Virus record (IMG/VR): IMGVR_UViG_3300031251_000016 | Coordinates: 1-64,000 of that record | DNA length: 64,000 nucleotides | Direction: 5' to 3' (one strand) | DNA from: a virus | In this document: one piece after another, positions 1 through 61,820 of the stretch | Layout of the letters: each line of letters opens with the position of its first letter | Numbering within the stretch: position 1 is the first letter of the stretch | The notes under the pieces: model-generated | The model's database searches: none | What the model saw: only the letters and a program-made list of their open reading frames with translations | What the model was told of the DNA's origin: nothing | Made by a program: the position numbers and the translations under genes

Positions 1-148
1 GCCCCTCGAGGGTGGCAACGTGCTCGAGCTGTTCGAGCGTGCGGCGAAGATCGGGGCCGACGCGGAGCTCGAAGCGCGTCTCAAGGCGCTCGAGGACCTC
101 CTGAAGAAGAGGGAGCAGTCGAGTGGCGGCGCCTGGAGCGGTCTCTAA
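1..148 (+). CDS. C-terminal end of an unknown protein (partial)
   Basis: An open frame enters from the left edge (first full codon at base 2) and stops with TAA at 146-148, giving about 48 residues. The tail is charged and likely helical, with AELEARLKALEDLLKKREQ. It lies directly upstream of small phage genes and the large terminase, so a small terminase or another early phage gene is possible. Too little is visible to assign a family. Confidence 0.45.
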   Translation, partial: PLEGGNVLELFERAAKIGADAELEARLKALEDLLKKREQSSGGAWSGL

Positions 149-368
149 GCGGCTTGAGGCGATCGAGGCGCGCGTCAAAGGTCTCGGCGCCACTACGCAG
201 CTGGATGACATTGTAGCGCAGCTCGACGCCGCTACCGCAGCCGCGAAGGATTGGGCTGCGGAGAGTGAGTGGATCCCGGTTTTCCCGGGCGAGCCTGAAT
301 CGCCTCTTTCCTGGCGAAACCCAGAGTTTGCAGCGGCTCTGGAGCGAATCAGTCGTATTGTGATTTAA
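123..368 (+). CDS. small hypothetical phage protein
   Basis: An 81-residue protein that starts at GTG after a GGGAGC ribosome-binding site and overlaps the end of the upstream gene by 26 bases. The N-terminal half is predicted coiled coil (KRLEAIEARVKGL...), and the C-terminal half is Trp/Pro rich. I do not recognise the family. The overlap suggests translational coupling with the upstream partial gene. No membrane segment or signal peptide is visible. Confidence 0.5.
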   Translation: MAAPGAVSKRLEAIEARVKGLGATTQLDDIVAQLDAATAAAKDWAAESEWIPVFPGEPESPLSWRNPEFAAALERISRIVI

Positions 369-373
369 CCGTA

Positions 374-402
374 TTGACCCCCGTCAAGCATGACTGTATA
401 GA
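374..402 (+). promoter_or_regulatory. sigma-70-like promoter
   Basis: TTGACC at 374-379, a 17-base spacer and TATAGA at 397-402. The ribbon-helix-helix gene starts at 438, which leaves a leader of about 30 bases. This is one of the best matches to the sigma-70 consensus in the window. Confidence 0.6.
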
Positions 403-437
403 GAGCGCGACGGTGCTCTTGGAAAGTAGGTGATGCG

Positions 438-656
438 ATGATGTTCGAGCCTCCCAGCAGACCGCCACGTCGGCGGCGGAGATCCCGGCCGGTGTACTCG
501 ACTTCGGTCCGACTCTCTCCTGAAGTCATTGACCGGATTGACTATGTTATAGAGAATGAATCTCGTGTGACCTCTCGTAGCGACGCAATCGGGCTTGCGC
601 TTGACCATTGGTTGACTCTGGCGGAGGCCGCAATCGCGCGGAAAAGGGCGAGCTAG
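438..656 (+). CDS. ribbon-helix-helix DNA-binding protein
   Basis: A 72-residue protein with a very basic N-terminus (PPRRRRRSRP) followed by a CopG/Arc-like ribbon-helix-helix: a short beta strand (YSTSVRLS), helix A (PEVIDRIDYVIE) and helix B (SRSDAIGLALDHWL). Such dimers bind operators through the beta ribbon, so it is probably a small phage repressor. No toxin gene is adjacent, so a toxin-antitoxin role is not supported. It has its own promoter upstream and a terminator downstream, making it a single-gene unit. Confidence 0.7.
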   Translation: MMFEPPSRPPRRRRRSRPVYSTSVRLSPEVIDRIDYVIENESRVTSRSDAIGLALDHWLTLAEAAIARKRAS

Positions 657-683
657 TTCGCACCCTCTGAGAAGTTTGGGGAA

Positions 684-716
684 GGCGGCGCTATGGCAGC
701 GGCGCCTTTTTCTTTT
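684..716 (+). terminator. rho-independent terminator
   Basis: The stem GGCGGCGCT / AGCGGCGCC (684-692 and 698-706) has one internal mismatch and a five-base loop. It is followed by TTTTTCTTTT. It ends the ribbon-helix-helix transcript. Confidence 0.65.
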
Positions 717-720
717 GGGC

Positions 721-749
721 TTGACAGCCGCCGACTGCAAAGCTAGCCC
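721..749 (+). promoter_or_regulatory. sigma-70-like promoter
   Basis: TTGACA at 721-726, a 17-base spacer and TAGCCC at 744-749. It is placed for a transcript that starts near 756, which favours the GTG at 780 as the start of the next gene. Confidence 0.5.
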
Positions 750-779
750 GTGAAGTCACTACGTTACAGAGGGACGCTA

Positions 780-983
780 GTGACTAAGCCAGCCAAAGCC
801 CGACGAGGCTTTGCCGCCATGAGTAAGGAAGCGCGCACGGAAATTGCGCGCAAAGGCGGCAAAAGCGTCCAACCTGAAAATCGCTCGTTCGCCCGCGATC
901 CCGAGCTTGCGCAGCGCGCCGGCAAGAAGGGCGGCACGAACCTCCACGCGAATAGGCGCAAGGAGGCCATCACATGGCCTTGA
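780..983 (+). CDS. KGG-repeat small basic protein
   Basis: A 67-residue basic protein with two KGG-type segments: GFAAMSKEARTEIARKGGK and a second one ending RAGKKGG. KGG (stress-induced, GsiB-like) segments occur in small bacterial proteins and phage genes of unclear function. The GTG at 780 was chosen because AGAGGGA lies just upstream and because a promoter -10 element overlaps the alternative GTG at 750. It overlaps the next gene by 10 bases. Confidence 0.6.
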   Translation: MTKPAKARRGFAAMSKEARTEIARKGGKSVQPENRSFARDPELAQRAGKKGGTNLHANRRKEAITWP

Positions 984-1390
984 ATTGGGAGGTAGACCGG
1001 GAGCTGCTGGAACAGCGCCGATCCCATGACGCCCTTAAGCAGCAAAAGAACGAGCCGGCGCTGCGCTACGACGCCGGCAAGCCGCGCTTCGATCTGCTCC
1101 CGAGCGACGCGCTTGAAGAAATCGCTGCGGTTTTCGCGCACGGCGCTGAGAAATACGGCGATAGCAACTGGCTCAACGGTGGAATGTCGTGGCGCCGCTG
1201 TCTCGGCTCGTTGTTGCGCCATGTGTTCGCCTGGGCGGCGGGGCGCGATCTCGACGACGGGCCGGGCGGCAGCGGCCTTCCGCACATGGCGCACGCTGCG
1301 GTCAACTGCATCTTTCTGCTCACCTACGCCAAGCGAAAGCTTGGCACGGACGATCGACTCAAGGAGAAGCCGAATGCAGTCAAAGCGTAG
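974..1390 (+). CDS. dATP/dGTP diphosphohydrolase N-terminal-domain protein
   Basis: A 138-residue protein matching the DUF5664 / dGTP_diPhyd_N family: LRYDAGKPRFDLLPSDALEE, then FAHGAEKYGDSNW, then RHVFAWAAGRDLDD and HAAVNCIFLL. Family members are all-alpha nucleotide hydrolases related to MazG that act on purine dNTPs in phage-infected cells. It is immediately followed, with a 17-base overlap, by a gene with the companion PF04447-type domain, so the two probably act together on the host dNTP pool. The assignment rests on motif memory. Confidence 0.72.
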   Translation: MALNWEVDRELLEQRRSHDALKQQKNEPALRYDAGKPRFDLLPSDALEEIAAVFAHGAEKYGDSNWLNGGMSWRRCLGSLLRHVFAWAAGRDLDDGPGGSGLPHMAHAAVNCIFLLTYAKRKLGTDDRLKEKPNAVKA

Positions 1391-1904
1391 CAGCTTCATG
1401 GAGGCTTGCCTCAACACGGCCACGGGCTTCGTCATTTCCTACCTTGCCGGCTGGCTCGTCTTCCCGCTGTTTGGCTTCGACTGGACGCCGGGCAAAGGCC
1501 TGGCGCTGACGCTGATCTTCACCGGTATCTCGATCGTGCGCTCCTACATCTGGCGGCGCATTTTCAATCGCAAGCACAAGTTCGCGAAGTTCGATCTTGT
1601 CGCGCATCTCGGGCGGCAGCGTGCGTTCTCGGAGCACACCTTCGGTCCGGGCATGCGAACGAAGGGCCTCATCGCGCACATCCGCAAGGAGCTTGACGAG
1701 ATCGAGCGCGCGCCGTTCGACCTGGAAGAGTGGATCGACGTCGTCATCCTGGCTTTCGATGGCGCGTGGCGTGCGGGGCACTCGCCCGTCGACATCGTGG
1801 CGGTGCTGGCGCTCAAGCAGAGCAAGAACGAACGTCGCAGATGGCCGGACTGGCGCGCGGTGGGCCAGGATCAGGCGATTGAGCACATTAGTCCCGCTGC
1901 GTGA
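1374..1904 (+). CDS. membrane-anchored dATP/dGTP pyrophosphohydrolase (DUF7220 + PF04447-like)
   Basis: A 176-residue protein with two parts. Residues 1-65 hold two hydrophobic helices (TGFVISYLAGWLVFPLF and GLALTLIFTGISIVRSY), as in DUF7220. Residues 80-165 match the PF04447 dATP/dGTP pyrophosphohydrolase, with GLIAHIRKELDEIE, LEEWIDVVILAFDGAW and LKQSKNERRRWPDW. Conserved acidic residues (E in KELDEIE, E/D in EEWID) would bind metal. The start at 1374 has AAGGAG upstream. MazZ of diaminopurine phages belongs to this family, but no purZ is seen in this window. Confidence 0.75.
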   Translation: MQSKRSSFMEACLNTATGFVISYLAGWLVFPLFGFDWTPGKGLALTLIFTGISIVRSYIWRRIFNRKHKFAKFDLVAHLGRQRAFSEHTFGPGMRTKGLIAHIRKELDEIERAPFDLEEWIDVVILAFDGAWRAGHSPVDIVAVLALKQSKNERRRWPDWRAVGQDQAIEHISPAA

Positions 1905-4696
1905 ACGCCGACGCCGTCCAAGCCCGCATCCGGTGGCTGCGCCAGGCGCGCGCGGCGCAGATCCCACCTGAGCATGAGTCGTGGTGGACTTACATCGCCT
2001 ACACACCCGGAAGGGGCTATGGAAAAACGAGGCTATCGGCGGAGGACTGCGCTTGGTATGCGATGACGCATCGGCGCGAGATCGTCCACGTCGTCTGCCC
2101 GACGAGTGACGACCTGCGCAAGGTCTATTTCGAGGGCCCGTCGGGGCTGCTGAATTGCCTGCCGCCAAGCGCGATCGTCAAATACAACAAGACGCCCTAT
2201 CCCGAACTCGTCACGACGACCGGCACGAAGATTCTTGGCTTCGGCGCTGAGAAGCCGGATCGCCTGCGCGGCCCCCAATGTCATCGGGCGTACTGCTTGG
2301 TCGGAGAGACGCTCGTCTTAATGGCGGACGGCTCTGAGAAGCCCATACGAGACGTAGAAGTCGGCGATCACGTAGTTACGCGCGCCGGATCGAAGATGGT
2401 CACTGCGGCGTGCATGACGAGAAAGCGGGCCACAACGCTGAAAGTGACTTGTTTTGGAGGACGAGCCATTGAAGGAACCCCCGAACATGAGCTATACGTA
2501 GTCAACGCGGGTTGGACCCCGCTGGGCGAGCTCAAACCGGGGGACAGGCTATGTGCGATAGGTGCGTCGAATTTGGCGGCAGGCGCTACCATCGCAGAAG
2601 CGATGGCTACTTCGTTCATGAAGGGTCGAGCCGCACCCGGCCGCGCGTTCGGCGTTATCTGCACAGGGACGTGTGGGCCGAGGAGAACGGCGAGATTCCT
2701 AAAGGATTTCACATCCACCATCGCGACGAGGACCGCGGGCACAACGCAATCGACAATCTTTTCCTCATGCCGCACGGCGATCACGCGCGCCACCACCGTC
2801 TTGGCAAAGAAAGCCCTACGTCCGTTTCGAACGGGCGAGCGGTCATGGAAGCGTTCTGGAGTCGGGCCGAGTGGAAGACCGCCAAGTGCATCGTTTGCGG
2901 AGCCGAGTTTCAATCTCGTGCTTTGGTTCCGTCAAAATTTTGTTCCGTCAAATGCAGCAGCGAATGGCACGAGCCGCGCTACGTTCCCGAAAGAAAGACT
3001 TGTGCATGCTGCGGTGCGTCTTTTGTTGCCAAAAAGCGCGCTCAGAGATTCTGCTCTAGGGCGTGCAACAGTCGTGCGAATGGCAAGGGTAGCCAAGGGG
3101 CGCGCGTCGTGTGCTGCGCAGAGTGCGGGTCCTGCTTCCCGTCAAACCGGAAAAACGCGCGGTTTTGCGGTCGAGAATGCGCCTTGGCTTACCACGACCG
3201 TAGTCGCGAGCGTCGAACCTTCGCCGACTTGTAAACCAGTCTACGATTTGACTGTTGCCGACGCGCACGAGTTTTTTGCGAACGGCATGCTGACGCACAA
3301 CTGCGACGAATTGGCGGCCTGGCAGTATGCCGAGACGTGGGATCAGCTTCTCTTCGGCTTGCGCCTCGGCAAGCACCCGCGCGCCATTATCACGACGACG
3401 CCGCGGCCGACGCCTCTGGTGCTGTCGATCCTCAAGGACAAGGGCACGCTTAAGATCACGGGCTCGACCTTCGACAACGCGGCCAACCTATCGGCGAAGA
3501 CGCTCGAGAAGCTCAAGGAGAAGTACGAGGGCACGCGCCTCGGCCGGCAGGAGCTGCGCGGCGAGGTCCTCGACGACGTGCCGGGCGCGCTCTGGACGCG
3601 CGACATGGTCGACGCGGCGCGGGCTCCGGTCGTTATTCCCGACTTCACGCGCATCGTAGTCGCGATCGACCCGTCAGGCGTGCGCAACGAGAGCGACACG
3701 GGATCCGATGAGGTCGGTATCGTCGTCGCGGCGAAGGGCGTGGATGGCCGCGGGTATGTGCTGTTCGACGGCTCCTGCAGGATGTCGCCGCTGGGCTGGG
3801 GGCGCCGCGCCGTCGAGCTTTACCGGCGCTTCGGGGCCGACCGGATCATCGGCGAGCGTAACTTCGGCGGCGCGATGGTCGAGGCCGTCATTCTGAGCAT
3901 TGACGACAATGTGCCCTACAAGGAGGTCACGGCCAGCCGCGGCAAGGTGCAGCGCGCCGAGCCGGTCGCAGCGCTCTACGAGCAGGGAAAAATCTCGCAT
4001 GTCGGCGACCTCGACGTGCTCGAGGATCAGATGTGCTGCATAACCTCGGCCGGCTATCTGGGCGAAGGCTCGCCCGATCGGGTCGACGCGTGTTTCGTTG
4101 CCGGAACGCTGGTTGAGACGGCAAGAGGAAGCGTGCCGATTGAGTGCGTGACGACGAAAGACTTTGTGCTTACTCGTCAAGGATTTAGACGCGTGACGTG
4201 GGCAGGCCGAACGGGGGTGAGAGAAACCGTTGTCACGACATTTGAGGATGGAAGAGAGCTAACGTCCACACCAGAGCATCCTGTCTGGACGGGTAGCGAC
4301 TTCACTGCTATAGCGGCTACGGCAGTTGGAGAGTCGTTATGGTCGCTGACCGCGAGAAGCGATACTTTGTCGACGCTATTTGCCCGGCTTGTGGAGGCGC
4401 GTTTAGGCAGAAAAAATGGGGAGACCGCTCCGAGGCTTGTTCCCGTAAGTGTGCTTGGGCGCTCCGCAGGGCGCGTCGAGCCTGTCTATAATCTGCATGT
4501 TGACGGCCCCCATGAATTCTTCGCGAACGGCTTCCTCGTGCATAATTGCGTCTGGGCGCTAACTGATCTGTTTCTCGGCGAGGATTTTGGCGGCTTTCTC
4601 GGCCACTACCGCGTTGAGTCTGAGAAGCGGCAGGCCGAAGTCGCTGCGAAGAAGGCGCCGGTCGCCGCGGGCTGGCTGCCGCCAAAGGTGGCTTGA
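1901..4696 (+). CDS. terL: terminase large subunit with two inteins
   Basis: This is the phage packaging motor ATPase and nuclease. The 931-codon frame starts with GTG overlapping the previous stop. Removing two inteins (residues 132-467 of 336 aa, and 731-882 of 152 aa) leaves a 443-residue protein, normal for TerL. The N-extein has Walker A GRGYGKTR. The Walker B region RGPQCHRAY / CDELAAW is interrupted by intein 1, one residue before Asp-Glu. The RNase H-like nuclease part has VAIDPSG, and SPDRVDA / CVWALTDLF is interrupted by intein 2. Both inserts therefore sit in catalytic motifs, and splicing should be essential for packaging. Confidence 0.93.
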   Translation: MNADAVQARIRWLRQARAAQIPPEHESWWTYIAYTPGRGYGKTRLSAEDCAWYAMTHRREIVHVVCPTSDDLRKVYFEGPSGLLNCLPPSAIVKYNKTPYPELVTTTGTKILGFGAEKPDRLRGPQCHRAYCLVGETLVLMADGSEKPIRDVEVGDHVVTRAGSKMVTAACMTRKRATTLKVTCFGGRAIEGTPEHELYVVNAGWTPLGELKPGDRLCAIGASNLAAGATIAEAMATSFMKGRAAPGRAFGVICTGTCGPRRTARFLKDFTSTIATRTAGTTQSTIFSSCRTAITRATTVLAKKALRPFRTGERSWKRSGVGPSGRPPSASFAEPSFNLVLWFRQNFVPSNAAANGTSRATFPKERLVHAAVRLLLPKSALRDSALGRATVVRMARVAKGRASCAAQSAGPASRQTGKTRGFAVENAPWLTTTVVASVEPSPTCKPVYDLTVADAHEFFANGMLTHNCDELAAWQYAETWDQLLFGLRLGKHPRAIITTTPRPTPLVLSILKDKGTLKITGSTFDNAANLSAKTLEKLKEKYEGTRLGRQELRGEVLDDVPGALWTRDMVDAARAPVVIPDFTRIVVAIDPSGVRNESDTGSDEVGIVVAAKGVDGRGYVLFDGSCRMSPLGWGRRAVELYRRFGADRIIGERNFGGAMVEAVILSIDDNVPYKEVTASRGKVQRAEPVAALYEQGKISHVGDLDVLEDQMCCITSAGYLGEGSPDRVDACFVAGTLVETARGSVPIECVTTKDFVLTRQGFRRVTWAGRTGVRETVVTTFEDGRELTSTPEHPVWTGSDFTAIAATAVGESLWSLTARSDTLSTLFARLVEARLGRKNGETAPRLVPVSVLGRSAGRVEPVYNLHVDGPHEFFANGFLVHNCVWALTDLFLGEDFGGFLGHYRVESEKRQAEVAAKKAPVAAGWLPPKVA
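2294..3301 (+). other. intein 1 in TerL Walker B site
   Basis: A 336-residue intein. Block A is CLVGETLVLMADGSEKPI, block B is GTPEHELYV (TxxH), block F is VYDLTVADAHEFFANG and block G is MLTHN, followed by Cys as the +1 residue. All four blocks are in the terminase frame. The roughly 230 codons between B and F in that frame show no endonuclease motif and look like low-complexity Ala/Arg/Ser/Thr sequence, because the DNA there encodes an HNH protein in another frame. Confidence 0.93.
2551..3234 (+). CDS. HNH homing endonuclease nested out of frame inside intein 1
   Basis: A 227-residue HNH endonuclease read in a frame whose codons begin at the third base of terminase codons. The HNH core is HIHHRDEDRGHNAIDNLFLM followed by HGDHARHH. 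It is followed by three zinc ribbons of pattern CxxC-x13-14-CxxxC (starting CIVCG, CACCG and CAECG). The start at 2551 follows CCGGGGGACAGG, a weak ribosome-binding site; the frame itself opens upstream of 2512. The stop at 3232-3234 lies just before intein block F. Expression would need internal initiation. It probably mediates homing of the intein or its own gene. Confidence 0.85.
   Translation: MCDRCVEFGGRRYHRRSDGYFVHEGSSRTRPRVRRYLHRDVWAEENGEIPKGFHIHHRDEDRGHNAIDNLFLMPHGDHARHHRLGKESPTSVSNGRAVMEAFWSRAEWKTAKCIVCGAEFQSRALVPSKFCSVKCSSEWHEPRYVPERKTCACCGASFVAKKRAQRFCSRACNSRANGKGSQGARVVCCAECGSCFPSNRKNARFCGRECALAYHDRSRERRTFADL
4091..4546 (+). other. intein 2 (mini-intein) in TerL nuclease motif
   Basis: A 152-residue intein. 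Block A is CFVAGTLVETARGSVPI, block B is STPEHPVW, block F is VYNLHVDGPHEFFANG and block G is FLVHN, with Cys as +1. Blocks F and G closely resemble those of intein 1 (DAHEFFANG versus GPHEFFANG), so the two may be related. It interrupts SPDRVDA / CVWALTD, the RNase H-fold metal site. The short linker carries an out-of-frame zinc-finger remnant. Confidence 0.92.
4297..4491 (+). pseudogene. out-of-frame zinc-finger remnant of an HNH gene inside intein 2
   Basis: In the same relative frame as the HNH gene of intein 1, this stretch is open from 4297, with an ATG at 4339, to TAA at 4489-4491. It encodes CPACGGAFRQKK then CSRKC, a CxxC-x15-CxxxC zinc ribbon like the three in the intein 1 nuclease. 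It stops at the 5' edge of block F, at the same relative place as the nested gene in intein 1. No HNH core remains. I infer it is the 3' remnant of a nested endonuclease gene. The short length leaves some chance of coincidence. Confidence 0.6.
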
Positions 4697-4721
4697 CTAT
4701 AACTACGGTCTTGGTTATGCA
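4693..4721 (+). promoter_or_regulatory. sigma-70-like promoter
   Basis: TTGACT at 4693-4698, a 17-base spacer and TATGCA at 4716-4721. It overlaps the terminase stop codon and lies 28 bases before the next ATG. Confidence 0.55.
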
Positions 4722-4749
4722 GTAGCTACCCAAGCCTGGAGGTTAAGCT

Positions 4750-4992
4750 ATGAAAGCGACTACCCTCGCCCTCGTTTTTGTTTTTGCCCTCACTCCCGCC
4801 CTCGCCCTTGACGCCGCGCCGACGGCGGAGGCCCCCCTCTACGACCCATGTCAAGTCGCGACGACCGCAGCCGACCTCGCCGACTCCTTCACGCTCAACA
4901 ATCCAGCTAACGACATAAAGGTGATGGCGGACCTTGCTCACGACACGCGCGACATTATCTGCGCGAGGCGCCCCGTCCCCGCGGCGAAGTAA
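4750..4992 (+). CDS. small secreted protein
   Basis: An 80-residue protein with a Sec signal peptide: MKATT, a hydrophobic core (LALVFVFALTPALA) and a likely cleavage after ALA. The mature part is about 60 residues with two Cys that could pair. The ribosome-binding site CTGGAGG lies upstream. It has its own promoter directly after the terminase. The family is not recognised; a periplasmic role in the lysogen or in lysis is possible. Confidence 0.65.
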   Translation: MKATTLALVFVFALTPALALDAAPTAEAPLYDPCQVATTAADLADSFTLNNPANDIKVMADLAHDTRDIICARRPVPAAK

Positions 4993-58396: not shown

Positions 58397-59044
58397 ATGA
58401 GTGGGATGGCGTTGGCGCCCAGAGTGGCCGACATTGTGAGGGTTGTCTCCGAGGACTATGGCCTCCCAATTTTTGCAATCCTCTCGCCGCGCAAGTCCGC
58501 GCAGATCGTCGAGCCGCGGCACGTCTGCGTCTACCTCGCGTCCGAGTTGACCAAACAATCTTGGACGCAACTCGGCCGGCACTTCGAGCGCGATCACACG
58601 TCGCTCTTAACCGCACGGGCGAACTTCGAAAAGCGGCTCGCCACGGATAGCGCCCTCGCCGCGCGCGTTGAGCGCCTCGCCGCCGAGGCGCGTCGGCTCG
58701 CCGTGCCGGAGATCCGCGAGGCGGAGGACGAGCAGCGACGCCTCGCGGCGCACACGCGCAGGCTAGAAGACGCGGCGCTCCGGCGCGCGGCGCGTGAGAT
58801 GAAAGAACGGCGCGAGCGCACGCAGGTCGTGCTCGACGAGCTTCCCAGAACGCCGCCAGGGCCGTCACGTGACCGACTCGTCGCGGAGGCGAAGGGCCTC
58901 GACCCTCGCTTTAACGAGCTCGCGCGCCGCTACGCCTACGCGCAGCAGGCGACCTTCACGATGGCGGAACGCGAAGCCAATGCGGCGCTGTCGCGCGAGA
59001 TCGCGTTCCTGCCGAAGCGCTTCGCCGAGCGCGCGCGTGGTTAA
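58397..59044 (+). CDS. DnaA-domain-IV-like DNA-binding protein
   Basis: A 215-residue protein. Residues 10-75 match the DnaA C-terminal DNA-binding domain: IVRVVSEDYGLPIFAILSPR, RHVCVYLASELTKQSWTQLG and FERDHTSLLTAR (the DHT motif of the DnaA signature). The rest is coiled coil (EAEDEQRRLAAHTRRLEDAA). Phages use such proteins for origin binding or gene regulation. It lacks the AAA+ domain. Confidence 0.75.
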   Translation: MSGMALAPRVADIVRVVSEDYGLPIFAILSPRKSAQIVEPRHVCVYLASELTKQSWTQLGRHFERDHTSLLTARANFEKRLATDSALAARVERLAAEARRLAVPEIREAEDEQRRLAAHTRRLEDAALRRAAREMKERRERTQVVLDELPRTPPGPSRDRLVAEAKGLDPRFNELARRYAYAQQATFTMAEREANAALSREIAFLPKRFAERARG

Positions 59045-60845
59045 GGCTTACTACAACGAGCATGACCCTCACGCTGCGGCGTGGCTTCGCAACCTGATCG
59101 CGCAAGGACTGATCGCGGATGGAGACGTCGACGAAAGAAGCATCGAAGACGTCCGCCCCGACGACTTGCGAGACTACGCCCAGTGCCACTTCTTTGCCGG
59201 CGTCGGAGTTTGGTCTTACGCACTCCGACTTGCCGGCTGGCCCGACGACCGGCCTGTCTGGACCGGCTCGTGTCCGTGCCAACCTTTCAGCGCGGCAGGC
59301 AAAAGAGGCGGGGCTTCTGACGAGCGGCACCTATGGCCTGCGTTCTTCCATCTCATCGAGCAGTGCAGACCTAGAACTGTTTTTGGCGAGCAGGTTGCGA
59401 GCAAGGATGGGCTCGCTTGGCTCGACCTTGTTCACGCTGACTTGGAAGGAGCGGGCTACGCCGTTGGGGCTCTCGATCTCTGCGCTGCGGGCGTCGGGGC
59501 GCCGCATATCCGACAGCGATTGTTCTTCGTGGCCGACGCCGATGGCGGGCTCTCCGGCGACCGAGGCTTACAACGAAGCGGGGAACAGCGACTACAGCCG
59601 CAAGACGGTGGCGCTAGCCTCCTGGCCGACGCCGAAAGCCTCGGACTGCCAGGGCGGCAGGACGACGGAGACGGCGGGCGGCGGCAACGCGCATCTGGAT
59701 CGGGACGTGAGGTTGGCGAGCTGGGCGACGCCGGCAGCACGGGACGGCCGATTTGCGAACGCGAAGACCTACAAGGAGCGGGGCGGTGGGGTGAAGGGGG
59801 AGCAGTTGAACAACCAAGCCGTCCACTTAGCGGGTTGGGCGACGCCGAATGCCTCGGCGCCGGGAGGGACGCCGGAAGCAGCTTTGAAGCGCAAGGAGGG
59901 CCTTCCTTGCGGTCAGAGCGTGACGACGCTGGATCATCAAGTTCAGATGGTCGGCCCGGTCCGACTAACGGCTATTGGAATCTTGCTGACTGGATCTTCT
60001 GCACAGACGGAAAATGGCGGCCAGTTGAGTCCACGCATGTCCGCTTGGCTCCAAGGATTGCCGCCGATTTGGGACGAGTGCGCGCCGACGAAGGAACAGA
60101 TGAAACGGAGTTGATGAATGCCGCGCGTCTACGAGGTCAAACCAACCCCCGAAAAGTTTTGTCGTCACTGCGGCGTAGCACTGGGGCGGAAGCGCATGAA
60201 CGGCCGCCTAGAGGACCGAGGGGTTTTCCTGCGGCGACAGTTTTGCGATCAAACGTGCATGGCGAAAGCCATGGAGAAAGAGACCTGCACGTCGGTCAGC
60301 CATTCCCGCATGAAGGCCAATCGCACGATGAAACCATCATGCGAAGCGTGCAACGCGACGGGAAAGCTACACGTCCACCACAAGGACGAGAACCCGCTCA
60401 ACAACGACCCGTCGAACTTGAAGACGTTGTGCGTCTCTTGCCACCGTCGCTCGCACTCGCCGAACTTCACGGCGACAGGGGAACAGCGAGCGCCTTGCGC
60501 TCATTGTGCGAAGCAATCTGTAAAGGTCGGTCTTTGCGCCACGCACCTGACGAGGCTCAGGCGCTTTGGCCATCCCTTAGCCAAGAAGCGAAAGATTGGA
60601 TCGGCTTGGGTTTTGATGCTGCACGATGGGAACTTGTGGTTCCCTTTCCCCTCATAGATGGGTCTGCCTTCCGAGTGGGACCAGGCGGCGCCAACTCGCG
60701 ACCAAATGAAGGCATCTTCGAAGGCAAGTCCCGCGCGAAAATGCTCCGCGGCTACGGGAACTGCATCGTCGCGCCGCTCGCGGCGGAATTCATCGGCGCT
60801 TTCCTCGATTGGGAAACCGAAGGCTTGGGAGGGGTTATGAAATGA
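59037..60845 (+). CDS. C5 cytosine-specific DNA methyltransferase, split by an out-of-frame insertion
   Basis: A 602-codon frame with GTG start overlapping the upstream stop by 8 bases. Motif I is FFAGVGVWSYALRLAGW, motif IV is SCPCQPFSAAGK (catalytic Cys), motif VI is FGEQVA, motif VIII is IRQRLFFVADA and the late motifs are GPTNGYWNLADWIFC, DGKWRPVE and LRGYGNCIV. Between DGKWRPVE and PFPLIDGSAF lie about 190 codons without family similarity that cover an HNH gene in another frame. From 59119 to 60114 the same DNA encodes a second protein. Activity with the insert is uncertain. Confidence 0.85.
   Translation: MVKAYYNEHDPHAAAWLRNLIAQGLIADGDVDERSIEDVRPDDLRDYAQCHFFAGVGVWSYALRLAGWPDDRPVWTGSCPCQPFSAAGKRGGASDERHLWPAFFHLIEQCRPRTVFGEQVASKDGLAWLDLVHADLEGAGYAVGALDLCAAGVGAPHIRQRLFFVADADGGLSGDRGLQRSGEQRLQPQDGGASLLADAESLGLPGRQDDGDGGRRQRASGSGREVGELGDAGSTGRPICEREDLQGAGRWGEGGAVEQPSRPLSGLGDAECLGAGRDAGSSFEAQGGPSLRSERDDAGSSSSDGRPGPTNGYWNLADWIFCTDGKWRPVESTHVRLAPRIAADLGRVRADEGTDETELMNAARLRGQTNPRKVLSSLRRSTGAEAHERPPRGPRGFPAATVLRSNVHGESHGERDLHVGQPFPHEGQSHDETIMRSVQRDGKATRPPQGREPAQQRPVELEDVVRLLPPSLALAELHGDRGTASALRSLCEAICKGRSLRHAPDEAQALWPSLSQEAKDWIGLGFDAARWELVVPFPLIDGSAFRVGPGGANSRPNEGIFEGKSRAKMLRGYGNCIVAPLAAEFIGAFLDWETEGLGGVMK
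59119..60114 (+). CDS. W(P/A)TP-repeat protein overlapping the methyltransferase
   Basis: A 331-residue protein in the +1 frame of the methyltransferase. It matches a phage family that I recall as encoded over C5 methyltransferase genes: LSARQAKEAGLLTSGTYG, STLFTLTWKERATPLGL, repeats SWPTP, SWPTP, SWATP and GWATP, and the end SSAQTENGGQLSP, GLPPIWDECAPT. Both frames carry conserved family motifs, so this is dual coding. Its function is unknown. It ends 3 bases before the HNH gene. Confidence 0.7.
   Translation: METSTKEASKTSAPTTCETTPSATSLPASEFGLTHSDLPAGPTTGLSGPARVRANLSARQAKEAGLLTSGTYGLRSSISSSSADLELFLASRLRARMGSLGSTLFTLTWKERATPLGLSISALRASGRRISDSDCSSWPTPMAGSPATEAYNEAGNSDYSRKTVALASWPTPKASDCQGGRTTETAGGGNAHLDRDVRLASWATPAARDGRFANAKTYKERGGGVKGEQLNNQAVHLAGWATPNASAPGGTPEAALKRKEGLPCGQSVTTLDHQVQMVGPVRLTAIGILLTGSSAQTENGGQLSPRMSAWLQGLPPIWDECAPTKEQMKRS
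60040..60720 (+). repeat. diverged duplicated segments flanking the HNH gene
   Basis: In the +1 frame of the methyltransferase, 60054-60111 encodes GLPPIWDECAPTKEQMKRS and 60661-60714 encodes GLPSEWDQAAPTRDQMKAS. The two copies flank the HNH gene. The upstream copy completes the overlapping protein, and the downstream copy, in the other frame, completes the methyltransferase C-terminus. Confidence 0.75.
60118..60657 (+). CDS. HNH endonuclease inserted in the methyltransferase region
   Basis: A 179-residue HNH nuclease: an N-terminal zinc ribbon (FCRHCG ... FCDQTCMAK), then the HNH core CEACNATGKLHVHHKDENPL, NNDPSNLKTLCVSCHRRSH, and a C-terminal CAHCAKQ...GLCATHLTRLRRFGHP. It lies between two diverged copies of the segment coding GLPxxWDxxAPTxxQM. 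The methyltransferase frame stays open through all of it. Likely a homing endonuclease. Confidence 0.85.
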   Translation: MPRVYEVKPTPEKFCRHCGVALGRKRMNGRLEDRGVFLRRQFCDQTCMAKAMEKETCTSVSHSRMKANRTMKPSCEACNATGKLHVHHKDENPLNNDPSNLKTLCVSCHRRSHSPNFTATGEQRAPCAHCAKQSVKVGLCATHLTRLRRFGHPLAKKRKIGSAWVLMLHDGNLWFPFPS

Positions 60846-61027
60846 TTGGTTTTCCAAAGTTCGCGTGGCCGCGTCGGCGCGGCGCGCTGCTCGCGGTCCC
60901 CGTTCTTCTCGCGATCGCAATCGGACTCGGCGCGGGATGCGCATGGCTAGAGCGCTCGGATGAAGGATGGCTCACGAAAGAGCCGACAAGCGGCGAGTGG
61001 CTCGCGGAAAGGTATGGGCGCAAATGA
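60842..61027 (+). CDS. small membrane or lipoprotein-like protein
   Basis: A 61-residue protein: basic start (MIGFPKFAWPRRR), hydrophobic helix (GALLAVPVLLAIAIGLGAG) and Cys directly after, LGAGC, which resembles a lipobox. TGAAATGAT overlap with the methyltransferase stop. The tail is GWLTKEPTSGEWLAERYGRK. Confidence 0.5.
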   Translation: MIGFPKFAWPRRRGALLAVPVLLAIAIGLGAGCAWLERSDEGWLTKEPTSGEWLAERYGRK

Positions 61028-61197
61028 CTAAGGTCGAAATGACGGACCGGCTGCGGAAACGCATCTTTCACATGCGCAAGGTCGAAGGCTGGACCTTTGA
61101 GGAGATCGGACGCGCGCTCGGCATTTGCCGCGAGAGAGTTCGCCAAGCGCTGCGCGAAGAGGAAGCGAAGATGGCGACGGCGGCGGGGCGCAAATGA
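61024..61197 (+). CDS. sigma-region-4-like HTH protein
   Basis: A 57-residue protein whose centre, WTFEEIGRALGICRERVRQA, is a sigma-70 region 4 helix-turn-helix. It has no other sigma regions. Such small phage proteins can bind -35 elements or act as anti-/co-activators of transcription. Coupled by ATGA on both sides. Confidence 0.7.
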   Translation: MTKVEMTDRLRKRIFHMRKVEGWTFEEIGRALGICRERVRQALREEEAKMATAAGRK

Positions 61198-61820
61198 ACG
61201 ACCCGTTCCCCGGGCTGTGGCGAAACTTCTACGGCCTGATCCTCGCAGATCCGCCGTGGCGGTTCGAGTCATGGAATGGGAAGGACGCCGAGAAATCGCC
61301 GGCGCGCCATTATGACCTCATGTCGCTTGACGGCATCAAGGCGCTCCCGGTCGAGAGCCTCGCGGCGCCGGACTGCGCCCTCGTCGTGTGGGGCGTGCAA
61401 GCGATGATGCCCGAGGCTTTCGAACTCATGCGCGCTTGGGGCTTCACGCCGAAGTCGACCGGTGCATGGGCGAAGCAATCGAAGAGTGGCGAGAAATGGG
61501 CGTTCGGGACGGGCTACATTTTCCGGTCAGCGGCCGAGTTCTACGTCCTCGGCACGCGAGGCAAGCCCAGGGTCGCCGTGCGCGACGTGCGCAATCTGAT
61601 CGTCGCGCCGGTGCGTGAGCACAGCCGCAAGCCCGACCAGCTCCACGCCGACCTTGAGCGCATGTTTCCGCATGTTCCGAAACTCGAGCTCTTCTGCCGC
61701 GAGCGTCGGCCGGGGTGGGACGCTTGGGGCAACCACGTCGACAAGTTCGAAGCGCGCACCGCCTCTGCCGAATGGGAAGCGCTCGGCGGAGCGCGCGAAC
61801 TGGAATGGGAGGGGCTGTGA
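61194..61820 (+). CDS. MT-A70 family adenine methyltransferase
   Basis: A 208-residue protein: GLILADPPWRFESW (DPPW catalytic motif), ALVVWGVQAMMPEAFELMRA, TGAWAKQSK, GYIFRSAAEFYVLGTRGKP and VREHSRKPDQLHADLERMFP match MT-A70 (N6-adenine). Phages use it to modify DNA. With the NPPF enzyme at 51 kb and the C5 enzyme at 59 kb it is the third methyltransferase in this window. Confidence 0.85.
   Translation: MNDPFPGLWRNFYGLILADPPWRFESWNGKDAEKSPARHYDLMSLDGIKALPVESLAAPDCALVVWGVQAMMPEAFELMRAWGFTPKSTGAWAKQSKSGEKWAFGTGYIFRSAAEFYVLGTRGKPRVAVRDVRNLIVAPVREHSRKPDQLHADLERMFPHVPKLELFCRERRPGWDAWGNHVDKFEARTASAEWEALGGARELEWEGL

Follow-up and report, generated by a model that had tools for sequence, protein, structure and literature searches.

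An HNH endonuclease gene out of frame within an open phage methyltransferase frame, flanked by a duplicated end of two overlapping genes

As far as the available text of the sources goes, the published cases of HNH genes lying out of frame within another gene come from mycobacteriophages. In the ShiLan domain (Arsenault, Gosselin and Gogarten, PMC11855218; case first reported in PMC9957025), a 202-amino acid insert lies in a mycobacteriophage methylase without any stop codon in the methylase frame, while the HNH is encoded in the third frame; the insert is described as neither intein nor intron, its patchy spread was judged to reflect homing, its first 11 residues resemble the first 11 residues after the insert, and no ribosome-binding site was found, so that leaderless initiation was proposed. 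Further out-of-frame HNH-like open reading frames (ORFs) are described in the DNA methylases Pacc40 gp60 and Applejack gp54/gp55 (PMC11855218; PMC12613952). Fungal mitochondrial mORFs, as described in PMC3630166, provide the gene into which they insert with a substitute C-terminus, with examples in Allomyces atp6 and in Glomus atp6, atp9, cox2 and nad3. Here we analyzed a stretch of 64,000 nucleotides (hereafter the window), being positions 1 to 64,000 of the 66,457 bases of the IMG/VR virus record IMGVR_UViG_3300031251_000016, in which an HNH endonuclease gene is found out of frame within the frame of a C5-cytosine DNA methyltransferase (MTase) that is itself overprinted by a second protein, here called OV. 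The insert is, we think with good confidence, a homing-type HNH cassette that occupies another frame in the 3' portion of the MTase gene and spares its host in two ways at once.

The MTase frame runs without any stop codon from its GTG at 59037 to its own stop ending at 60845, including the whole of the HNH gene. OV ends with the upstream one of two copies of a duplicated segment and a basic tail, KEQMKRS, followed by two stops (OV stop at 60112–60114), whereupon the HNH gene begins directly. Its protein is laid out as an N-terminal CxxC..C..C domain, an HNH core and a C-terminal Cys/His domain, and it matched PF01844 with 22.8 bits (cut-off 21.4). The catalytic PCQ motif (CPCQPFS) and motif X (RGYGNCIV) were both found in the window MTase upon alignment, and its predicted structure matched the fold of M.HhaI. 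OV is an ordinary phage protein, with tblastn matches in 201 of 50,697 phage records, and a Pfam search gave no match for it; the two families that it did match, phrog_1008 and phrog_31772, both carry the PHROGs label DNA methyltransferase, though OV is the overprinted partner. The HNH ORF, the OV stop and the through-open MTase frame given in a first-pass annotation of this DNA were thus all present in the sequence.

To define the family of this HNH protein, a profile built from 14 HNH proteins was applied to all loci fetched by then (numbered L001 and so on), taking hidden Markov model scores >90 as membership. ORFs with identical last 60 residues were merged, L056 (the window itself) was removed, and L064, a duplicate of L001, was left out of listings. 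This gave 51 non-redundant HNH genes at G+C contents of 33–71%, of which 50 were nested in a host frame, with the HNH in phase +1 in the window and in all nested members. The residues H87, H88, N96, N100, H109 and H113 together with the Cys pairs were invariant in 28 of 28 HNH relatives.

In 50 of the 51 family genes the host frame, in ORFs of 219–936 codons (some cut by contig ends), had no stop codon over the HNH match, with L196 as the exception. The numbers of stops to be expected were derived from a null model in which the HNH protein was held fixed while synonymous codons were either shuffled within the gene or drawn according to the codon usage of neighbouring genes. Family-wide, 10 stops were observed against 337 expected with the shuffle and 441 with neighbour usage; six of these 10 were found in L196, three in L195 and one in L053, and in the latter two the HNH ORF runs beyond the host's own stop. 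In Staphylococcus phage CUB-EPI_14, having only 33% G+C, 11–22 stops were expected and none was found. For the window gene alone the expectation was 4.3–4.4 stops with the synonymous shuffle (P about 0.005) and 6.5 with neighbouring-gene codon usage (P about 0.001), again with none seen, so that the through-open MTase frame reported in the first-pass annotation was not only confirmed but found to be beyond chance. A set of 102 other HNH ORFs (at least 80 codons) had 1583 stops against 1725 or 1572 expected; this control consists of those among 118 other ORFs that had at least one host-frame stop and, being selected on outcome, shows only a rough calibration of the null. Since the host frame is open, a T at the third base was found in 0 of 2142 positions before codons starting with AA, AG or GA, as compared with 1386 of 5470 before other codons (49 genes). 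Phase +1 is the stop-prone phase for the host; many stops are expected there and openness is therefore informative, whereas only 1.0 stop was expected in the host frame of an intein in the terminase gene of the window, which has the ShiLan phase. Chance opening is excluded across the family. Because the phase is stop-prone and the family occurs also at 33–42% G+C, the avoidance of stops argues strongly, in our view, that the interrupted host protein continues to be made by translation through the insert and continues to matter. Active upkeep of the host frame had previously been unsettled, the ShiLan domain, as described, sitting in a phase in which an open host frame can cost little.

The second way of sparing the host concerns the duplicated end. 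In the OV frame of the window the two copies start at 60055 and 60661, that is, 606 bp apart, a multiple of three, and they become convincing as a repeat only because the same arrangement recurs in relatives. Among OV-bearing hosts with the insert, 23 were taken and 22 scored against profiles from 10 uninterrupted phages (L188 was left out, its copies being visible in the alignment). In all 22 the upstream copy was a better fit to OV than to MTase and the downstream copy a better fit to MTase than to OV, and in 16 of them the OV score was higher for the upstream than for the downstream copy. Upstream copies kept the OV motif WLMGxPxxWDxC, followed by a short basic tail and a stop, and had lost the MTase motif; downstream copies kept the MTase motif, with the OV frame decayed in several and sometimes containing stops. 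The locus L186 could be compared with the uninterrupted Pseudomonas phage PMG1, being 82–91% identical in matched pieces. Here a single PMG1 segment (1324–1361, 38 bp) matched both sides of the L186 insert, with a net insert of 471 bp, again a multiple of three. Compared with PMG1, the upstream copy of L186 had 4 of 18 OV residues changed against 11 of 19 MTase residues, and the downstream copy had 2 of 33 MTase residues changed against 7 of 32 OV residues. From the copy scores and these residue changes we conclude that the OV end resides in one copy and that of the MTase in the other.

These results bear out what the first-pass annotation had proposed, namely that the HNH gene was inserted into a dual-coding pair, that each copy serves one frame and that the insertion freed the overlapping frames from each other. 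The claim would have fallen had uninterrupted relatives already contained both copies; PMG1 has one, and the 10 uninterrupted phages are single-copy. Inserted and uninterrupted MTase alleles both occur among phages. An insertion that un-stacks two overlapping genes is an unusual exit from gene overlap.

The HNH gene itself seems to be provided with its own start. Of 49 genes taken for this analysis 48 were counted (L069 has no ATG), and the first ATG was found 0–2 codons after an in-frame stop in 33 and directly after the stop in 21, while a Shine-Dalgarno core was present within 15 bases in 29 of the 48, compared with 15% at random places. At the window junction, TGATGAATG, a GGAG precedes the HNH ATG by 7 bases. 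The simplest reading is that initiation at this Shine-Dalgarno-like site, just after the end of OV, probably gives the HNH protein.

Taken together, we propose the following course of events. Ribosomes would read through the cassette in the MTase frame, which has no stop there, and the resulting MTase, presumably active, would have about 170–190 additional residues separating its target-recognition part from motif X. The OV frame is cut by the insertion, and the cassette would bring its own OV end with a short basic tail and a stop; the presence of that copy and its fit to OV were observed, as was the retention of the MTase end in the downstream copy. The HNH would initiate at the site behind the OV stop, and its product would cleave alleles that lack the insert, at the conserved 3' segment that codes in two frames, whereupon repair would copy the cassette in. 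Cutting and homing are suggested because of the patchy occurrence, the several host gene types and the several insertion sites.

Several observations weigh against this explanation. At the DNA level the window repeat is weak: its 32 identities in 57 bases exceed those at any other of the 63,829 offsets, yet the runner-up has 31, and when the two flanks were simply aligned locally as DNA the repeat was missed (score 19, matched by 722 of 990 random window pairs). For the window taken as a single case the open frame has a P value of about 0.001–0.006. We found no two nearly identical sequences of which one has the window's own insert and the other lacks it; among uninterrupted phage DNA the best match to the window was about 74% identical, and the similarity of the window to phages at the DNA level covers parts of the MTase only. 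The AlphaFold2 model of the 602-amino acid product (31 sequences) had an overall mean predicted local distance difference test score (pLDDT) of 57.7, with both the target-recognition region and the insert being poor. Host type is clustered on the HNH tree, so that vertical descent with the host also contributes. Finally, 298 Pseudomonas genomes searched at E 1e-10, without a positive control, gave no member of the family, and plasmids gave no family match in one search and one weak HNH match in another; recent movement was therefore not caught.

With regard to hosts, rough pattern rules placed 23 of the 50 nested genes in MTases of the window type, eight in Dcm-like MTases (insert after motif IX in five and before motif IX in three), three in OV-like WPTP-repeat proteins, one inside such repeats of another MTase and 15 in other or unclassified hosts. 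When 31 further host ORFs were scanned, 23 matched PF00145 and six matched phrog_1008, the OV family. The HNH tree, in which several deep forks were weak, required at least 15 changes of host type, as compared with a least possible number of 6 and an average of 24.7 for shuffled labels, which means that both movement and descent are at work in the family. In L065, L182 and L200 the host frame is itself OV-like (WPTP repeats, LMGWPxGW, then a RIKALGN-like end), pointing to a kinship between OV and the final portion of MTase-like proteins of this sort. The only family HNH with a closed host frame, L196:3007–3351, sits on a long branch of the tree, with no MTase among the nearby ORFs listed, and can be seen as a natural control for relaxed selection. 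Three records of named phages contained the family: CUB-EPI_14, phiKX1 and phiKX2. In CUB-EPI_14 (L052; ON325435.2, 36629–38434) one coding sequence annotated as a DNA-cytosine methyltransferase covers both genes, the nested HNH being unannotated, so that annotation can hide such endonucleases; its host fell into the rule class 'other', and alignment with phage IME-SA4 puts its insert between the target-recognition part and motif IX. A scan of genome contigs gave 38 loci, nearly all of which matched the HNH core only.

We next consider what the filler, that is, the host-frame product of the HNH DNA, may be. It could be a useful MTase domain, for example in DNA binding, selected for its sequence in true dual coding. 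Among 49 genes, pairs were therefore compared with a null that kept both HNH proteins and avoided stops. At HNH identities below 40% the host-frame excess was near nil, with mean Z scores of 0.08 (42 pairs) and 0.46 (689 pairs) against 0.26 and 0.21 for the third, unused frame; a slight excess at 40–50% identity (0.69 against 0.35 in the other frame, 352 pairs) speaks for dual coding, as would the larger ones at 50–70% (3.16 against 1.93, 83 pairs) and above 70% (7.97 against 5.84, 10 pairs), but shared ancestry inflates both frames, and an excess in both is what it should give for close pairs. The structure model likewise points both ways: some helices were predicted in the insert, yet its block-mean pLDDT was mostly 29–71, compared with mostly 75–96 for residues 1–170 (with a dip near 81–100) and 94 for residues 581–590, which belong to the C-terminal helix. 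Using VIA-align, the MTase model superimposed on M.HhaI with Z 14.3 and 2.8 Å over 174 residues, in a model range of 2–599 that includes the chain end, suggesting that motif X would still dock on the catalytic domain, although parts of this model are poor. We thus find dual coding in this sense unlikely, and judging from the sequence comparisons the filler appears to be kept open by selection while being hardly conserved, tolerated rather than used, and not a domain. The HNH protein on its own was modelled with a mean pLDDT of 86.4; Foldseek with this model gave no match at E 0.001 or better (best 0.13), and the PDB profile match of the HNH to I-HmuI reached E 0.28 only.

The remaining explanations fared worse. 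Removal of the insert before the MTase works, as an intein, a self-splicing intron or by translational bypass, would yield a normal MTase and agrees with the type of HNH, which is often carried by introns and inteins, the open frame then being incidental. We hold it to be improbable, as there was no Rfam match at E 1 in 58800–61200 (a search that would miss an undescribed ribozyme), some 540 of the 606 bp that separate the copies are taken up by the HNH ORF, with little room left for a ribozyme, Pfam gave no intein, Hint or Intein_splicing domain in the window MTase, though the TerL of the same window does match, and a removed insert needs no open frame, yet nearly all family genes have one. 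That last point tells equally against a gene in pieces, with two separately translated MTase parts of which the C-terminal one starts behind the HNH, and with the through-frame unused: nothing would keep that frame open, yet open it is. Split C5-MTases are known, as are phage genes split with an endonuclease between the halves, for example mobE in nrdA, and we would give this possibility about the same small chance as removal. A nested restriction-modification system with the HNH as restriction partner would fit the joint encoding of an HNH nuclease and a DNA methyltransferase in nearly all members, but the target-recognition parts in the hosts of the closest HNH relatives of the window are nearly unrelated (identical residues 9/101 in L058, 22/91 in L060, 28/94 in L061 and 23/90 in L063) whereas the HNH proteins of those same relatives are 59–66% identical; some hosts are, moreover, OV-like proteins (phrog_1008 in 6 of the 31), and this explanation seems to us slightly less probable still. 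Least credible of all is a chance opening of the MTase frame, owed to GC-rich DNA, in a dead gene that the HNH merely disrupted, for although this part of the window has 63% G+C and its single case reaches only P about 0.005, the stop counts refute chance opening for the family, whose frames are open down to 33% G+C, and all 22 OV-type hosts that were scored still have motif X downstream.

Out-of-frame HNH genes were also found outside this family. The TerL gene of the window (1892–4693, plus strand) has an HNH ORF at 2551–3231 out of frame (+2) in its intein 1, in the same phase as ShiLan, which the first-pass annotation had named as a parallel. The parallel holds in that this is a second out-of-frame HNH ORF; it does not extend to the phase, the family profile does not detect this HNH, and the openness of the TerL frame across it is uninformative alone (1.0 stop expected, probability of none 0.26). 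The same TerL has a second intein-like Hint domain (Hint_2 match at residues 734–779), apparently without an endonuclease. A further 16 HNH ORFs of at least 80 codons, each inside another ORF and all in phase +1 by construction of the list, had an open host frame. Ten of them have as host a terminase gene with intein domains (L221, L210, L214, L124, L097, L236, L090, L220, L086 and L252), and out-of-frame HNH genes therefore also sit inside inteins; in L252, at 36% G+C, 14–33 stops were expected and none was found. In L217 the HNH (2779–3246, host 69–4793, 41% G+C) occupies another frame than its host, a DNA polymerase III alpha gene that matches Hint weakly, and the HNH of L218 (3019–3363, host 1095–3965) is likewise out of frame with its host, a UDG/family A DNA polymerase gene without an intein match and with the DNA_pol_A match in two stretches. 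The hosts in L219 and L205 are MTases, L151 looks by eye like a further interrupted terminase, and L014 is the remaining ORF of the 16. The cases collected here show this recently described kind of hidden mobile gene to be much more widespread than the published cases.

The features of the window locus are compiled in Table 1. Just 3' of the MTase lies a further methyltransferase-like ORF (61197–61820, plus strand) with an ILADPPW motif, which we take to be MT-A70-like.

Table 1. Coordinates of the MTase, OV and HNH features in the window
Feature	Position	Strand	Details
C5-cytosine DNA methyltransferase (MTase) frame	59037..60845	+	602 amino acids including the insert; GTG start; PF00145 6e-12; phrog_363 1.5e-76
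OV, overprinted protein	59119..60114	+	+1 frame of MTase; phrog_31772 8.9e-32; phrog_1008 5.3e-27
Upstream copy of duplicated OV/MTase 3' segment	60055..60111	+	OV-frame sequence GLPPIWDECAPTKEQMK; supplies OV C-terminus
GGAG, Shine-Dalgarno-like	60107..60110	+	7 bases ahead of HNH ATG
HNH endonuclease gene	60118..60657	+	179 amino acids; ATG start; phase +1 to MTase, same frame as OV
Host-frame filler (foreign MTase residues from HNH DNA)	60118..60640	+	Approximate bounds, from alignment with uninterrupted MTases; pLDDT mostly 29–71
OV-frame remnant after HNH stop	60658..60840	+	MGLPSEWDQAAPT..., overlaps MTase tail
Downstream copy of duplicated segment	60661..60717	+	OV-frame sequence GLPSEWDQAAPTRDQMK; part of MTase end (PFPLIDGSAF...)
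MTase motif X and C-terminal helix	60744..60842	+	LRGYGNCIVAPLAAEFI...; motif X normal

Compared with free-standing phage HNH homing endonuclease genes, the relatives of I-HmuI, the window HNH has the same core with the expected residues, but it lies in an alternative frame of a host gene and not in an intron or between genes. The likeness to the mORFs is found in an endonuclease ORF near the 3' end of a gene and in a duplicated end whose element-borne copy restores the interrupted protein (PMC3630166); the duplicated gene end by which mORFs are recognized is present here too, with two copies flanking the ORF and one copy in uninterrupted relatives. The mORFs, as described there, restore one gene and leave the old end as a remnant, whereas in the window one copy restores OV and the overlapping MTase, with its through-running frame, goes on using the other.

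As in the published description of the ShiLan domain, the HNH of the window has flanking zinc-finger parts and lies within a phage methylase gene but in another frame; the methylase frame is free of stops, there is no signal of an intein or intron, and an end repeat is present. The ShiLan structure, held away from the enzyme by loops, gives a similar picture to that of the window MTase model (PMC11855218), and the 'common strategy' of endonuclease genes entering open frames that the first-pass annotation had suggested is supported, being already in print for methylases in that same publication, in the available text of which no overlapping second protein is mentioned. Pacc40 gp60 and Applejack gp54/gp55 are likened to the window by description only. 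In our own analysis of ShiLan (JN020143) gp65 the HNH was confirmed to lie in the third frame (+2), as opposed to +1 in the window and the nested members, and the family profile matched it weakly, with 8.0 bits and the HNH core as the best part, which would make the two HNH proteins distant relatives at most. The hosts of the window family are C5 enzymes or OV-like proteins, in contrast to the ShiLan host, which has a DPPY-type methylase motif and is presumably not a C5 enzyme. A Shine-Dalgarno core was found in 29 of 48 members of the window family, whereas no ribosome-binding site is reported in the description of ShiLan. Our literature search, covering titles and abstracts and few subscription journals or preprints, gave no report of this HNH family, of the OV overlap or of the +1 phase, nor any that combined read-through with a duplicated end on two overlapping genes.

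On balance, we lean towards viewing frame-sharing as a third way, in addition to introns and inteins, in which homing endonuclease genes can reside within coding genes. The cassette would be built open in one fixed phase and enter methyltransferases without splicing, with sister HNH groups in polymerase genes and in splicing terminase inteins, and one insert would keep two overlapping genes alive, by read-through for one and by a carried duplicate end for the other, thereby separating genes that were previously superimposed. The window element is thus of a kind already published with the ShiLan domain, here with a different HNH family, in the other phase and combined with an end duplication.

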